A stretch of 64,000 nucleotides of DNA from Gottschalkia acidurici 9a (GTDB lineage: Bacteria; Bacillota; Clostridia; Tissierellales; Gottschalkiaceae). The notes under the pieces are model-generated. The model saw only the letters and a list, made by a program, of their open reading frames with translations. It was not told where the DNA came from and ran no database searches. The stretch spans positions 434,001-498,000 of the forward strand of contig NC_018664.1 in the NCBI RefSeq assembly GCF_000299355.1, read 5' to 3'. Position 1 is the first letter of the stretch, and every line of letters starts with the position of its first letter. This document shows positions 58,704 to 63,800 of this stretch, piece by piece. The translations under genes and the position numbers were made by a program.

Positions 58704-58833
58704 AGTAAAAAGTTACATTCTAACATTGACATTTATCCCCACTTTATTAGATGAAATTTGAGCAAGAATTATCAAGAATTAACTTATGACTGAGTATATA
58801 ATATATGATATATTCTTGGAAAGGAGAATGCAT

Positions 58834-59226
58834 ATGGATTATCACTTAAAAGTACGTGATTCACTTGAGTATATTGAAAAAAATCTGGATAATAAGATTA
58901 AACTTAATGACCTTGCTCAAAAAGCTTATCTGTCAAAATATCATTATCATAGACTTTTTCGCAGAATAACAGGTGAATCCGTCACCAGATATATTACTAA
59001 GAGGCGTATGGAGAAGGCTGCAGAAGAGCTTGTTCAAACAGAACAGCCGATTATTGATATTGCACTGAAGTATCAATATGCTTCTCAGGAATCCTTTTCT
59101 AGAGCCTTTATGAGGATTTATGATTTGACACCTGGAAAATATCGGAGAGTATATAGAAGTGGCAAATTCAATAATGTTATCGAATTCAGTTCTGACTTCA
59201 ACAGAATCACGAATATGGCTGCATAA
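58834..59226 (+). CDS. Short AraC-family HTH regulator
   Basis: 130 aa, essentially only the AraC DNA-binding domain: [48 protein letters not shown] and [34 protein letters not shown], as in MarA/SoxS-size proteins. Start placed at ATG after GAAAGGAG; the longer frame lacks an RBS. Followed 19 bases later by clpP, likely co-transcribed, at the head of a ribosome-resistance module. No effector domain, so its own synthesis may be the control point. Confidence 0.8.
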
Positions 59227-59245
59227 GCAGCGAATGGAGGTTAAT

Positions 59246-59839
59246 ATGAGTAATCTTATACCAGTGGTAATTGAACAAACATCTCGAGGAGAACGCTCTT
59301 ACGATATTTTTTCGAGGTTGTTAAACGATAGGATTATCATGCTTAACGGCATGGTAACAAATGAGTCTGCGAGTTTAATTATTGCCCAAATGCTCTTCTT
59401 GGAATCTGCTGACTGTGACAAGGACATTCATTTCTACATTAACAGTCCAGGTGGCTCAGTAACAGACGGCTTTGCTATTATAGATACAATGAATTATATT
59501 AAATGCGATGTTTCTACAATCAGTGTAGGCCAATCAGGGAGCGCAGCTTCATTACTTCTGGCGTCGGGGAAGAAAGGTAAACGTTTTGCCCTGAAAAACA
59601 GTGAAGTGATGATTCATCAGCCATCAATATCTGGCGGACTACAGGGGCAGGCCACAGATATTAAAATTCATAGTGACTGGCTTGAAAAAACAAAAGAAAC
59701 TCTGAATGGAATATATAGTAGGCTTACAGGCCAGCCAATCCAAAAGATTAATGAAGACATGGAAAGAGACTGTTATATGACGGCTGAGCAAGCAAAAGAA
59801 TATGGGTTAATTGATAAGATTTTATTATATCGTACGTAA
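59246..59839 (+). CDS. ClpP-family serine protease (accessory copy)
   Basis: 197 aa ClpP. Seen: [35 protein letters not shown], nucleophile Ser in [16 protein letters not shown], catalytic His in MIHQPS, and Asp in [20 protein letters not shown]. The segment before the nucleophile ([10 protein letters not shown]) differs from the usual CxGMAASM. Start placed at ATG after GGAGG. As it lies in transferred DNA beside resistance genes, it is more likely a specialised paralog than the housekeeping clpP. Confidence 0.85.
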
Positions 59840-59949: not shown

Positions 59950-60029
59950 TTGACTTTTTAGACGTATTATAGTACAATAATAGAAAATTTGAAATTTGAG
60001 GTGAAAAAATGATTAATTTTTCTTGCTAA
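59950..60029 (+). promoter_or_regulatory. Promoter with a six-codon leader ORF upstream of the ABC-F gene
   Basis: TTGACT (59950-59955), 17-base spacer, TACAAT (59973-59978), then GAGGTG and a tiny frame MINFSC-stop (60009-60029). Downstream, CAAAAATAAACAG pairs with CTGTTTGTTTTG (about 60050-60082). Looks like the start of a long regulatory leader. Confidence 0.6.
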
Positions 60030-60136
60030 TTTTTAAAGTACATTTAATACAAAAATAAACAGGTGTGTTCTGTTTGTTTTGTTGTACTTGTGCAAGAAAG
60101 TTATTCTTTTTTCTCTTAATATACAAACTTGTGTTA

Positions 60137-60210
60137 TGCTATAATGATTAGCTTAACTACGCATGTTTAAGAGCTGTAAGAATAATTAATTCTTGCAGCT
60201 CTTATTTTTT
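60137..60210 (+). promoter_or_regulatory. Extended -10 promoter followed by an intrinsic terminator (attenuator)
   Basis: TGCTATAAT (60137-60145) is an extended -10. AAGAGCTGTAAGAA (60169-60182) pairs with TTCTTGCAGCTCTT (60190-60203), followed by ATTTTTT: a terminator placed about 20 bases into the transcript and before the leader peptide. Confidence 0.7.
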
Positions 60211-60244
60211 ATAAATAATTCAAATAAGGAGGATGAATAATACT

Positions 60245-60325
60245 ATGGTAAATAAAGACACTTTGATAACACATGATAATCTCCATATAGAGTCGGATAT
60301 TGCAGGCGACACTCATATGGAGTAA
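60245..60325 (+). CDS. 26-aa leader peptide of the ABC-F gene
   Basis: ATG follows AAGGAGGATG. Product ends with the pattern ITH..LH...D..GD..ME, shared with the leader before the cfr-like gene; both are exactly 26 codons. Alternative pairings: CTCCATAT (60281-60288) with ATATGGAG (60315-60322), against AGTCGGA (60291-60297) with TCCGACT (60345-60351) enclosing GGCGAC/GTCGCC. Ribosome position on this frame would select between them. Confidence 0.72.
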   Translation: MVNKDTLITHDNLHIESDIAGDTHME

Positions 60326-60390
60326 TAACGAGGTCGCCTATTGTTCCGACTTTGTTATTTATACTATTAAATACAGAGGGGGACAAAAAT

Positions 60391-61869
60391 ATGTCTTTAA
60401 TAAGTGTTACAAACCTAACCTTTGCTTATGAAGGTAGCTATGATAATATTTTTGAAAATGTAAGTTTTCAAATTGATACTGATTGGAAATTAGGATTCAC
60501 TGGAAGGAATGGAAGAGGAAAGACTACTTTTATGAATCTTTTGCTTGGAAAATACGAATATAGTGGAAACATTTCAGCTGATGTGACTTTTGAATATTTT
60601 CCTTATGAGGTGCATGATCAAAGCAAATTCACCATAGATGTTATAAGGGAGATTAGTCCAAATTCAATGGATTGGGAAATAGTAAAAGAATTATCTTTGT
60701 TAGATATGGATTACGATGCTTTATATAGAGAGTTTTATACACTATCTAAAGGAGAGCAAACCAAAGCATTGTTGGCTGCTATGTTTTTGAAAGAAAACTC
60801 CTTCTTGCTTATTGATGAGCCTACTAATCATTTGGATACTGAAGCTAGGCAAAAACTATGTAGTTACTTGAAAAAAAAGAAAGGATTTATTCTGATTTCA
60901 CATGATAGATCTTTTTTAGATAATTGTATTGATCATATCTTATCTATTAATAAAACTAATATTGAAATACAAAAAGGAAATTTTTCTTCATGGTGGAGAA
61001 ACAAAGAATTACAAGATGGTTTTGAGCTAGCAGAAAACGAAAAATTGAAAAAGGATATTAACAGACTTTCCAGATCGGCAAAACGTACGTCTACGTGGTC
61101 AGATAGCGTTGAAAGCAGCAAGCATGGAACTACTAATTCTGGAAGCAAATTAGATAAAGGATTTGTTGGACATAAAGCTGCAAAAATGATGAAGCGTGCT
61201 AAAAATATAGAAGCTAGACAACAAAACATGATTGAGGAAAAATCAAAGCTTCTTAAAAATATTGAATCCAATGAAAGTTTAAAAATAGTACCACTTACTT
61301 TCCATGATAAAAAGCTTGTAGAGCTTATGGATGTTGCAATTGAATACGATGATAGAATTGTCTGTGAAGGAGTAAATTTTACTATAGAACAAGGTGAAAG
61401 AATTGCTATTCAAGGAAAGAATGGCAGCGGAAAATCAAGTATATTGAAATTAATTTATGGAGAAGACATCCCCCATAGTGGAAATGTAAGAAAAAATAAT
61501 AAGTTAATCATTTCATATGTTTCACAAGATACTTCAGATTTATATGGTAACTTATCCGAGTATGCAGGTAAACACTGTATTGACGAGAGTCTATTTAAAT
61601 CTATGCTTAGAAAGCTTGATTTTTCAAGAGAACAGTTTGAAAAGAATATAGAAGATTTTAGCGGAGGGCAGAAGAAAAAGGTATTGATTGCCCAAAGTTT
61701 GTGTGAACGGGCACATTTGTATATTTGGGATGAACCATTGAATTTTATTGATGTCATTTCTCGTATGCAGATTGAACAATTGTTAATTGAACATGAACCT
61801 ACAATTTTGTTTGTTGAGCATGATAGCGCATTTTGTGAAAATGTTGCAACAAAAATAATAAAATTATAA
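60391..61869 (+). CDS. ABC-F ribosomal protection protein, Lsa-type
   Basis: 492 aa with two ATPase domains and no membrane domain. First: Walker A GRNGRGKTT, signature LSKGEQTKALLAA, Walker B FLLIDEPTNHLD. A charged linker (about 205-300; antibiotic-resistance-domain position) follows. Second: GKNGSGKSS, FSGGQKKKVLIAQ, YIWDEPLNFID. Length and DEPLNFID motif match the Lsa/CplR group, which displaces lincosamides, pleuromutilins and streptogramin A from the ribosome (family knowledge). Start placed at ATG after GAGGGGG. Preceded by an attenuator-type leader and followed by a cfr-like gene. Confidence 0.87.
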   Translation: MSLISVTNLTFAYEGSYDNIFENVSFQIDTDWKLGFTGRNGRGKTTFMNLLLGKYEYSGNISADVTFEYFPYEVHDQSKFTIDVIREISPNSMDWEIVKELSLLDMDYDALYREFYTLSKGEQTKALLAAMFLKENSFLLIDEPTNHLDTEARQKLCSYLKKKKGFILISHDRSFLDNCIDHILSINKTNIEIQKGNFSSWWRNKELQDGFELAENEKLKKDINRLSRSAKRTSTWSDSVESSKHGTTNSGSKLDKGFVGHKAAKMMKRAKNIEARQQNMIEEKSKLLKNIESNESLKIVPLTFHDKKLVELMDVAIEYDDRIVCEGVNFTIEQGERIAIQGKNGSGKSSILKLIYGEDIPHSGNVRKNNKLIISYVSQDTSDLYGNLSEYAGKHCIDESLFKSMLRKLDFSREQFEKNIEDFSGGQKKKVLIAQSLCERAHLYIWDEPLNFIDVISRMQIEQLLIEHEPTILFVEHDSAFCENVATKIIKL

Positions 61870-61889
61870 AGGTAGGAATGACAATTAAC

Positions 61890-61970
61890 ATGTTTAATGG
61901 AAATATAAAAATAACACATAATAGGCTCCATGCAAAGCCAGATGTTTTGGGCGACGCTTGCATGGAGTAA
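61890..61970 (+). CDS. 26-aa leader peptide of the cfr-like gene
   Basis: Shares ITH..LH...D..GD..ME and the exact length with the ABC-F leader (12 of 26 residues identical). Pairings: CTCCATGCAA (61926-61935) with TTGCATGGAG (61958-61967), against GCAAAGCCAG (61932-61941) with CTGGCTTTGC (61991-62000); the left arms overlap, so only one can form. An ATG four codons upstream is an alternative start. Confidence 0.7.
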   Translation: MFNGNIKITHNRLHAKPDVLGDACME

Positions 61971-62033
61971 TATAAGTCGCACTAATTATACTGGCTTTGC
62001 TTCCTAACTATTAATAGTGAGGAGGAAGCCTAC

Positions 62034-63068
62034 ATGAAACAGACAAAAACGAAATATGAGAAAATAAAACAAATAGTATCAAATTTAAAATTACCTGACT
62101 ATAGGTACGAACAAGTTACAAAAGCTATTTTTCATCAAAGAATAGATAATTTTGATGATATGCGTATACTGCCAAAGGCTTTAAGGATAGCTTTAGTAAA
62201 TGAGTTTGGAAAGAATGTATCTAGTATAATACCTGTTTTTTCACAAGATTCTAAACAAGTTCAAAAATTGTTATTCGAATTGACTGATGGAGAAAGAATA
62301 GAAGCTGTTGCGCTAAAATATAAGCAGGGGTGGGAATCGTTTTGTGTTTCTTCCCAATGTGGTTGTGGCTTTGGATGTAGTTTTTGTGCAACGGGAAGTG
62401 CTGGGTTCAAGCGCAATCTTACTGCTGATGAGATAACTGACCAATTACTTTATTTCTATTTTAATAACCATAGACTGAATAGTATTTCATTTATGGGAAT
62501 GGGTGAGGCTTTTGCAAATCCAGAGTTATTTGATGCAGTAAAAATTTTGACTGATCGAAATTTATTTGGATTAAGTCAAAGAAGAATTACTATTTCAACA
62601 ATTGGTATTATACCAGGAATTCAAAGATTGACCAAAGAATTTCCACAAGTGAATCTGGCTTTTTCACTTCATTCACCATTTGAAAGTCAACGAAGTGATT
62701 TAATGCCTATAAATAAAACATTTCCATTGAATGATGTAATGAAGGCATTAGATGAACATGTCATTCATACGGGACGGCGAGTGTTTATTGCTTATATTAT
62801 GCTTAAAGGAATTAATGATTCGAAAGAACATGCAGAGGCAGTTATAGGTCTATTGAAAAGTCGAGGTTCATGGAAGCATTTATATCATATTGATTTGATA
62901 CCTTATAATTCTACGGACAAAACAACTTTTAAATTTCAACCTTCAAGTGATATCAAGCAATTTTATAGTACACTAAAGAAAGCTGGTATTAATGCAACTG
63001 TTAGAACACAATTTGGTTCTGAGATTAGTGCTGCTTGTGGACAGTTGTGTTATGAAAATGAATTATAA
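62034..63068 (+). CDS. cfr: Cfr-like 23S rRNA A2503 C8-methyltransferase
   Basis: Radical-SAM methylase, 344 aa. Seen: GWESFCVSSQCGCGFGCSFCATGSAGFKRNL containing CxxxCxxC, the MGMGEAFANP segment, ISTIGIIPGI, NLAFSLHSPFESQRSDLMPIN, and the catalytic Cys in EISAACGQL. The opening, GWESFC and GMGEA motifs follow Cfr rather than housekeeping RlmN, and the context (Lsa-type ABC-F, leader peptide) agrees. Cfr gives resistance to phenicols, lincosamides, oxazolidinones, pleuromutilins and streptogramin A (family knowledge). Which class (B, C, D, E) cannot be decided here. RBS GAGGAGG. Confidence 0.82.
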   Translation: MKQTKTKYEKIKQIVSNLKLPDYRYEQVTKAIFHQRIDNFDDMRILPKALRIALVNEFGKNVSSIIPVFSQDSKQVQKLLFELTDGERIEAVALKYKQGWESFCVSSQCGCGFGCSFCATGSAGFKRNLTADEITDQLLYFYFNNHRLNSISFMGMGEAFANPELFDAVKILTDRNLFGLSQRRITISTIGIIPGIQRLTKEFPQVNLAFSLHSPFESQRSDLMPINKTFPLNDVMKALDEHVIHTGRRVFIAYIMLKGINDSKEHAEAVIGLLKSRGSWKHLYHIDLIPYNSTDKTTFKFQPSSDIKQFYSTLKKAGINATVRTQFGSEISAACGQLCYENEL

Positions 63069-63350: not shown

Positions 63351-63773
63351 TTAAAAATCTGAATCATTATCCGTATATTCGCAACAGGTTGGAATTGGCG
63401 AGTCTGTATCATATGCCTGGCAGGCATCATGGTAATAATCAAGTTTTCGATCAATCGAGCGAAGATATTTTTTTAAGTCTTCGATTTGCTTCAAGACATC
63501 ATCTTTGTGGTTGATTAACATATCGTTACGTGCATGAAGAGTATCATTTCCTTCATTTTGCCAATCCATAAATTGCTTTATTTTCTTAATAGGCATTCCA
63601 GTATTCTTAAGACAGCATATGAGTGAGAGCATTTCCATATCATCCCTTGTGAAAATACGGTTGCCTGATTTATCTCTTTTAACATTAGTGAGTAGTCCTT
63701 CACGGTCATAGTATCTTAATGTGTATGTTGTTAAATTCATTTTTTTAGCGGCCTGCGCTATGGTATAGTTCAC
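63351..63773 (-). CDS. MerR-family transcriptional regulator
   Basis: About 140 aa: MerR HTH (YTIAQAAKKMNLTTYTLRYYDREGLLTNVKRDKSGNRIFTRDDMEML), helical linker (LKNTGMPIKKIKQFMDW, dimerisation coiled coil) and a short Cys-containing tail (CQAYDTD...CCEYTD). The start is probably the GTG eight bases after GAGG (another GTG lies nine bases upstream). Its own promoter and the divergent one both have 19-base spacers with a shared dyad, so it probably activates both. Confidence 0.85.
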   Translation of the reverse strand: MNYTIAQAAKKMNLTTYTLRYYDREGLLTNVKRDKSGNRIFTRDDMEMLSLICCLKNTGMPIKKIKQFMDWQNEGNDTLHARNDMLINHKDDVLKQIEDLKKYLRSIDRKLDYYHDACQAYDTDSPIPTCCEYTDNDSDF

Positions 63774-63800
63774 GTTTATCACCTCAGATAGTTTTTATAT

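Follow-up and report, generated by a model that had tools for sequence, protein, structure and literature searches.

The window analysed here (64,000 nucleotides of the Gottschalkia acidurici 9a genome, contig NC_018664.1, positions 434,001 to 498,000) carries on its plus strand a gene for an Lsa-family ABC-F ribosome protection protein (60391..61869; NF000167, 772.6 bits, cut-off 750), followed by a gene for a Cfr-family 23S rRNA A2503 methyltransferase (62034..63068; NF011024, 672.7 bits, cut-off 468; NF000424, 600.5 bits, cut-off 530). According to PMC10201436, cfr often adjoins lsa. A sequence-only reading of this DNA had placed a 26-codon leader ahead of each of the two genes, and this was borne out: both gene assignments exceed the cut-offs curated by NCBI, and leader 1 (60245..60325, stop codon 60323-60325; MVNKDTLITHDNLHIESDIAGDTHME) and leader 2 (61890..61970, stop codon 61968-61970; MFNGNIKITHNRLHAKPDVLGDACME), likewise on the plus strand, end 65 nt before the ABC-F gene and 63 nt before cfr, respectively. 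An in-frame ATG lies 12 nt 5' of each leader start and its use would give 30 codons; since these upstream ATGs are missing from some homologues, a length of 26 codons is preferred. The region immediately 5' of the operon (58786-59839) contains a gene for a Rob/SoxS-like AraC regulator and one of the ClpP family, and a MerR-type regulator is encoded on the minus strand downstream of cfr (63351-63782).

The two leader peptides have 12 of 26 residues in common, in register, exactly as had been claimed, and this number was reached by none of 20,000 shuffles of peptide 2. At the DNA level, 73 of 110 aligned bases are identical and the local score is 33, compared with a maximum of 15 in 2,000 dinucleotide shuffles, which supports the common origin that had been proposed for the pair. 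A search of the whole genome with the covariance model R2 returned the two leader sites, which match by construction because both were in the alignment of R2; a third copy was not found with this model, the next best place having E=0.19. In Rfam 15, no family reached its gathering threshold in the window or in 20 other leader loci, and the only matches of a permissive scan, two with E 1.2 and 2.5, stayed far under their gathering scores.

Both leaders had also been described as containing the same mutually exclusive hairpins, with one right arm encoding the final Met-Glu. Indeed, helix P1 is formed by 60281-60288 with 60315-60322 in leader 1 (CUCCAUAU/AUAUGGAG) and by 61926-61933 with 61960-61967 in leader 2 (CUCCAUGC/GCAUGGAG), and its right arm codes for Met-Glu in both. 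Helix P2 comprises 60287-60297 with 60345-60355 plus 60305-60310 with 60333-60338 in leader 1, and 61932-61941 with 61991-62000 plus 61951-61955 with 61976-61980 in leader 2. P2 reuses the 3' part of the left arm of P1, so the two are mutually exclusive, and the covariation described below upholds both. A third pairing, P3, was read by eye. It is weak in leader 1, where TTTGTT (60351-60356) can pair with GACAAA (60382-60387), flanking the Shine-Dalgarno (SD) sequence at 60376-60382; in leader 2, GGCTT (61993-61997) and CTTCC (62000-62004) can pair with GGAGG (62021-62025) and AAGCC (62026-62030), which would bury the SD of cfr. Expressed in segments, segment 1 (CUCCAUGCAAG-like) would pair with segment 2 to give P1 or, via its 3' part, with segment 3 to give P2, and segment 3 or adjoining bases could pair with the downstream start site to give P3. 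At the level of sequence, a short leader ORF is thus combined with an SD that overlaps alternative helices, as in translational attenuators of the ermC/cat kind. The start site of cfr has a further possible partner: the pairing of TAGGCTCC with GGAAGCCTA, in which both sides are altered in locus L015/L093 and which is broken or weakened in L011 and L092, would favour a logic other than that of the P1/P2/P3 model.

Beyond what the sequence-only reading contained, leader 1 is preceded on the same strand by another unit (59950-60211). It starts with a putative promoter, recognised by eye (TTGACT, 17 nt, TACAAT; 59950..59978), an arrangement that is also visible upstream in L020. A TATAAT at 60139 was dropped as a promoter because it is not conserved. 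The small uORF1 (60009..60029), with the SD GAGGTG, encodes MINFSC and is the presumed sensor; MINFSC or close variants are likewise placed in Clostridia homologues. The stem SL1 (60019..60099) pairs, by eye, TTTCTTGC (60019-60026) with GCAAGAAA (60092-60099) and AAAGTACA (60035-60042) with TGTACTT (60083-60089). Its GCAAGAA can alternatively pair, again by eye, with TTCTTGC (60190-60196), an arm of an intrinsic-terminator-like hairpin followed by a T tract (60169..60211; 14 pairs including one G.U, by eye). The motif TTCTTGC..GCAAGAA is found in 67 of 88 ABC-F upstream regions, and 63 of the 88 also have the terminator-like arm and the T tract. A tiny uORF in a stem, a 3' arm that can pair with the terminator and a T tract give the unit, as far as its layout goes, the form of a vmlR-type attenuator. 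In 27 of the 67 loci with these arms, mostly from Paenibacillus and Cohnella (e.g. L034, L040, L043), a candidate uORF is AUG-stop, which would be in line with a sensor of start-codon arrest.

How far the leaders themselves extend was asked of homologous genes. A protein scan of genome contigs was evaluated for the best 80 of the ABC-F loci. Among these, 16 loci (L011-L026) have an ABC-F protein of at least 77% identity and 15 of them have the leader; in L020 it is missing although the ABC-F protein is 87.6% identical, and the upstream attenuator adjoins the gene directly there. In L022, a partly palindromic insert of about 100 nt (about 2818-2920) splits the leader before the P1 right arm. 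Among the remaining 64 of the best 80, a clear match to the leader model was seen only in L044 (Acetobacterium bakii, E=1.1e-7), where the 26-codon type of leader stands without a vmlR-type upstream unit; L027 (E=0.043) retains at most part of P2 and was set aside. Leader 2 precedes all nine distinct cfr genes of the Clostridia type that were looked at and is absent from the Paenibacillus cfr-like genes L059 and L070. These two are preceded by a leader with the motif VVDVxVxLS, which is also found before Lsa-type ABC-F genes in three other Paenibacillus genomes (L058, L071, L088), apparently a second case of one leader type before both ABC-F and cfr-like genes. Plasmid records contained no match to the leader peptide or to the DNA of leader 2, and the Cfr genes from 178 plasmid records are all less than 60% identical; two exact patterns searched in viral contigs were not found.

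Model R1, built on the 26-codon leaders, had matches in 7 of 249 genomes at the level of the order and in 5 of 391 at that of the class; one match is ahead of a truncated Mef-like MFS gene (L113). MFS relatives were found at 21 places in 20 of 245 genomes, plus L117 and L118 on plasmid records. Mostly they keep the layout with a leader of 12 codons, typically MKLCIAxAPCKV; no leader was seen in L131, L133, L136 and L137 are compact, and L138, L139 and L113 have longer ORFs. The match of R1 to the MFS leaders is weak (E=0.0022 at best, and E<=10 for 7 matches in 22 loci). What links the long leaders to the short ones is therefore the layout, a segment 1 that is nearly identical, and the intermediates L113, L138 and L139, and convergence instead of common ancestry could still account for the likeness. 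The mixed model R2, trained on many MFS places and the two leaders of the window, matched at 43 places in 36 of 391 genomes of the class (E<=0.01), three of the 36 by a chance-like match alone. Altogether 39 of the 43 places lie before five gene families: 20 MFS, 5 ABC-F, 3 cfr, 3 CatA-like and 8 CD3324-like, the CatA and CD3324 places being outside the training set. Three of these families go beyond the two genes of the earlier reading. The other four places are one before no nameable gene (L165) and three that are chance-like. In the phylum, R2 gave 12 places in 11 of 398 genomes (5 CD3324-like, 2 MFS, one apparent MFS remnant, 2 ABC-F, of which L176 is a weak match with E=0.0016, 1 cfr and 1 chance-like). 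The chance-like matches L181, L182 and L185 (class) and L178 (phylum), with E 0.002-0.007, are not at the head of a fitting gene and were rejected. The leader is also retained before a truncated MFS gene (L113:3486-4058) and before what appear, by eye, to be MFS remnants (L165, L170).

The CatA-like proteins are under the NCBIfam CatA cut-off (210-214 vs 270 bits, 3 of 3), and the one that was scanned has a Pfam CAT match with E=2e-59. The small Mor-like proteins of the CD3324 type stand behind the switch at 13 loci (L167, L169, L171, L173-L175, L177, L180, L183, L184, L186-L188). All four that were scanned passed NF040785, and the Pfam Mor score fell just short of the cut-off in 3 of 3; for the remaining nine, the assignment is based on obvious sequence similarity. 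None of the papers listed by a literature search contains the name CD3324.

The helices were examined in alignments of these homologues. Alignment A1 consists of 26 leaders aligned by plain MAFFT; it leaves out L015 (sequence identical to L093), L022 (insert) and L020 (no leader), as well as L044, L108, L109, L112, L115 and L116, which were found later. In A1, 99.5% of the P1 cells and 95.7% of the P2 cells are paired, compared with 25-57% and 29-50% when the partners are slid by 1-3 columns, and the covariation score is reached by 0 of 500 shuffles for P1 and likewise for P2. Column 43 pairs with column 72 in P1 and with column 113 in P2, and the three change together from A/U/U to G/C/C; this joint change is what alternative pairing of one base predicts. 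Several covarying pairs, with many cells, reflect the single split between ABC-F and cfr leaders. Separate compensatory changes are found in L023, where GGCGAC/GTCGCC has become GGTGAC/GTCACC, in L021, where it has become GGCTAT/GTAGCC, and in L116 (CUCCGUAU/AUACGGAG), where Met25 is replaced by Thr and the pair restored. Against P2, columns 49/107 are C.A in 6 of the 26 leaders, and against P1, one pair is broken in L109 (Glu26 to Lys).

The mixed alignment A4 (22 leaders, only four of them with 26 codons; L117, with a long extra hairpin, L131, L133, L136 and L137 are left out) shows both partners changed in 5 of the 9 pairs of P1 and in 6 of the 10 of P2, and its covariation score is again reached by 0 of 500 shuffles. 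In the 16 CatA and CD3324 leaders, which were outside model building, 94.4% of the P2 cells are paired, a figure that leans towards P2 since the alignment was fitted to it; 5 of 10 pairs are doubly changed (0 of 500 shuffles). P1, which is absent from the model, is present in 16 of 16 with 10-11 bp, G.U allowed and counted without a shuffled control. The sequence-only reading had staked itself beforehand on compensatory changes in homologous leaders. These are present in P1 and in P2, and the helices are conserved and mutually exclusive, as expected for a translational attenuator.

That reading had taken both peptide and RNA to be conserved. The RNA part stands, but for most of its length the peptide is not independent evidence. 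The reading frame of segment 1 (CUCCAUGCAAG) differs between the leader types: it gives an LHA(K/R)-like sequence (LHAK) in those of 26 codons and APCK in those of 12. Much of the similarity at the C termini of the peptides is therefore due to RNA pairing. Of the 48 steps in codons 13-26 of the ABC-F and cfr leaders, 8 are synonymous where 24% are expected, i.e. there is no excess (all such counts are minimum single-base steps, made without a tree); this count, the Met25Thr change of L116 and the frame changes are what the correction is based on. One could suppose that the leaders encode functional small peptides and that the hairpins are incidental. This would account for the 12 common residues, but the covariation, the frame changes and M25T with its restored pair speak against it, and we give it next to no credence. 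Before P1 the picture is another one: in the short leaders 24 of 56 steps in codons 2-7 are synonymous (25% expected), and these residues are kept as peptide. For the long leaders the corresponding counts are 10 of 45 in codons 2-7 (18% expected) and 5 of 11 in codons 8-11 (24% expected), the latter perhaps a hint of peptide constraint. Thr9 is found in 20 of 22 ABC-F and 9 of 9 cfr leaders and His10 in 31 of 31; in 21 of 23 short leaders, position 4 is occupied by Cys, Ala, Ser or Gly. Exceptions at residue -1 are Val in L044, Met in L130 and Ile in L134, and in the four CD3324 leaders that were read by eye this residue is not a small one (L184 F, L186 Q, L187 M, L188 V).

From the conserved layout, the covariation, the genomic distribution and the computed opening of start sites we infer that the leaders are translated, that ribosomes stall on them and that stalling switches the downstream gene on. 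It is fairly probable that both leaders of the window belong to one uncatalogued family of translational attenuators, which would act as follows. Without drug, P1 and P3 would hold the start site closed. A ribosome stalled by the drug 9-12 nt 5' of segment 1, which means at codons 8-10 here and at codons 4-5 in leaders of 12 codons, would cover the 5' half of this segment; P1 would be blocked, P2 would form, P3 would be lost and the resistance gene would be translated. The predicted stall site, codons T9-H10, is at 60269..60274 in leader 1 and at 61914..61919 in leader 2 (plus strand). Upstream of leader 1, the vmlR-type attenuator would control transcription of the operon via stalling at its 6-codon uORF.

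The opening of the start site was computed by folding with a masked ribosome footprint (-12 to +15), the measure being the cost of opening. The scan covered 20 standard 12-codon MFS leaders (without L113, L131, L133, L136-L139 and L172), 3 CatA, 9 cfr and 20 ABC-F leaders (without L015, L016, L017 and L022; in L016 and L017 the stretch ahead of the gene is about 95 nt longer). With target codons that were picked after a first look at SD accessibility, the mean cost fell from 8.1 to 3.0 kcal/mol at codons 4-5 of the MFS leaders, where the minimum lies in 20 of 20, and from 8.4 to 3.9 kcal/mol at codons 4-5 of the CatA leaders (minimum there in 2 of 3). For the cfr leaders it fell from 10.3 to 7.6 kcal/mol at codons 9-10, below the cost without ribosome in 7 of 9, and the minima of single sequences are at codons 8-9 in 8 of 9. 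For the ABC-F leaders the decrease was from 6.6 to 5.65 kcal/mol; 19 of 20 had a lower cost than without ribosome, and the single-sequence minimum was at codons 8-10 in 11 of 20. The gain clearly exceeded that of shuffled sequences for MFS (5.1 vs 0.45; in 15 of 20 it surpassed each of the leader's own 12 shuffles), CatA (4.4 vs 0.2; likewise in 2 of 3) and cfr (2.9 vs 0.1; 6 of 9), and was weak for ABC-F (1.0 vs 0.4 kcal/mol; 3 of 20). A ribosome on the start codon raised the mean cost in all four classes. Other footprints shift the best codon by one or two, and SD accessibility alone gives smaller peaks (cfr 0.23 to 0.33). In the 13 CD3324 leaders, the lowest mean, 8.0 instead of 10.35 kcal/mol, is at 12 nt before segment 1, with variable minima, which are at -12 or -9 nt in 7 of these leaders and at +36 or +42 in 3. 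According to these models, then, the start site is opened when a ribosome stands some 9-12 nt 5' of P1, at codons 8-10 or, in leaders of 12 codons, at codons 4-5, but not when it stands on the start codon. In the compact variants L133, L136 and L137, the start site seems, by eye, to be buried by segment 1 itself.

The CD3324 leaders have a second low region when segment 2 is masked (8.7-9.6 vs 10.35 kcal/mol). This, together with the P1 right arm coding for Met-Glu, would fit a stall at the end of the 26-codon leader (Met-Glu-stop) that covers segment 2. The 12-codon MFS and CatA leaders, however, stop before segment 2, the cfr leaders gain little at codons 24-26 (9.65-10.05 vs 10.28), Met25 is lost in L116 and codons 13-26 have no synonymous excess, which leaves a stall at this position a slim chance. 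The weak opening effect in the ABC-F leaders, and the T-rich stretch seen by eye after P2 in the ABC-F and many MFS leaders, are reasons to consider transcription attenuation as well: P2 would then be a weak intrinsic terminator and P1 the antiterminator, and early stalling would lead to P1 and readthrough. We regard this as unlikely; the cfr leader is without a T tract after P2, segment 3 complements the start site in the MFS and CatA leaders (by eye), and the computed optimum of opening is similarly placed in all five classes on average.

If early stalling opens the start site by translational attenuation, as we prefer, induction would most likely come from drugs, such as phenicols and oxazolidinones, by which elongation is arrested after a small residue. 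With the P site at codon 10, Thr9 is the penultimate residue. Chloramphenicol and linezolid arrest best with penultimate Ala and less with Ser or Thr, according to the accessible text of PMC8987054. These drugs are favoured because the penultimate residue would be Thr9 or, in the short leaders, the residue at position 4, which is mostly Cys, Ala, Ser or Gly, and because one of the targets is CatA-like. The identity of the drug is nevertheless a guess, since Cys is outside the list of Ala, Ser and Thr given in that part of PMC8987054 and four CD3324 leaders do not fit. Some members precede CD3324 Mor-like proteins of unassigned role, and a sensor of general translation stress or amino-acid starvation could be imagined there; but Cfr, Lsa, CatA-like and Mef-like genes make up the rest of the named targets, and we see only a very slim chance for a sensor of this kind. 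The shared switch looks like an uncatalogued sensor of ribosome-blocking drugs.

Literature searches by title and abstract, with most subscription papers outside their reach, found no description of this leader, nor of Cfr control by such a leader, and nothing relevant on Lachnospiraceae cat leaders. The kind of mechanism is already known; the new part is the shared, re-framed module across gene families. More speculatively, one ancestral switch may have been reused before at least five families (Cfr, Lsa ABC-F, Mef-like pump, CatA-like enzyme, CD3324 regulator) with the leader ORF re-framed round a conserved RNA segment, and may here be stacked behind a start-codon sensor, so that full expression would need arrest at initiation and in early elongation, a two-signal gate; we advance this tentatively and would not yet count on it. 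If rRNA methylation, ribosome protection, efflux and drug modification are governed by one switch, this would account for the coordination of inducible resistance in Clostridia and would provide a sequence test for silent inducible resistance in genomes. Such a shared switch also predicts that the Mor-like CD3324 family belongs to an antibiotic response, and it would be an example of an attenuator that keeps its RNA while the encoded peptide changes.

As in the translational attenuators of cat, cmlA and fexA, the proposed switch has a short leader on which a stalled ribosome would free the start site, and phenicol resistance is among the targets. Thr9-His10 of the window leaders presumably resembles the stall site of the cat leader. 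In ermC, the closed state consists of 1:2 plus 3:4; here, the open state would be 1:3, with segment 1 common to both pairings, a comparison of layout and not of sequence. Leader-controlled hairpins that bury the start site are common to both (ermC as described in the accessible part of PMC5418344). The same part of PMC5418344 lists cat, cmlA and fexA as individual table entries, whereas one layout is found here before five gene families. The mef/mel (msrD) leader, likened by description and not by sequence, is also an attenuator ahead of a Mef pump and an ABC-F protein, but works by transcription attenuation (PMC5418344, accessible part). The uORFs of vmlR (Bacillus subtilis, MIN), cplR (Clostridioides difficile, MR[I/M]) and lsaA (MAGN) have 3-4 codons and are presumably stalled by drugs whose action falls just after initiation, as far as the accessible text of PMC9226507 and PMC10201436 goes; a 26-codon second-stage leader such as that found here is not mentioned for them in this text. 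What they have in common with the locus is a uORF ahead of an ABC-F gene, antibiotic-responsive in the known systems and putatively so here, with alternative hairpins in vmlR and cplR, and the vmlR layout recurs in the window element 59950-60211, with the uORF MINFSC in place of MIN.
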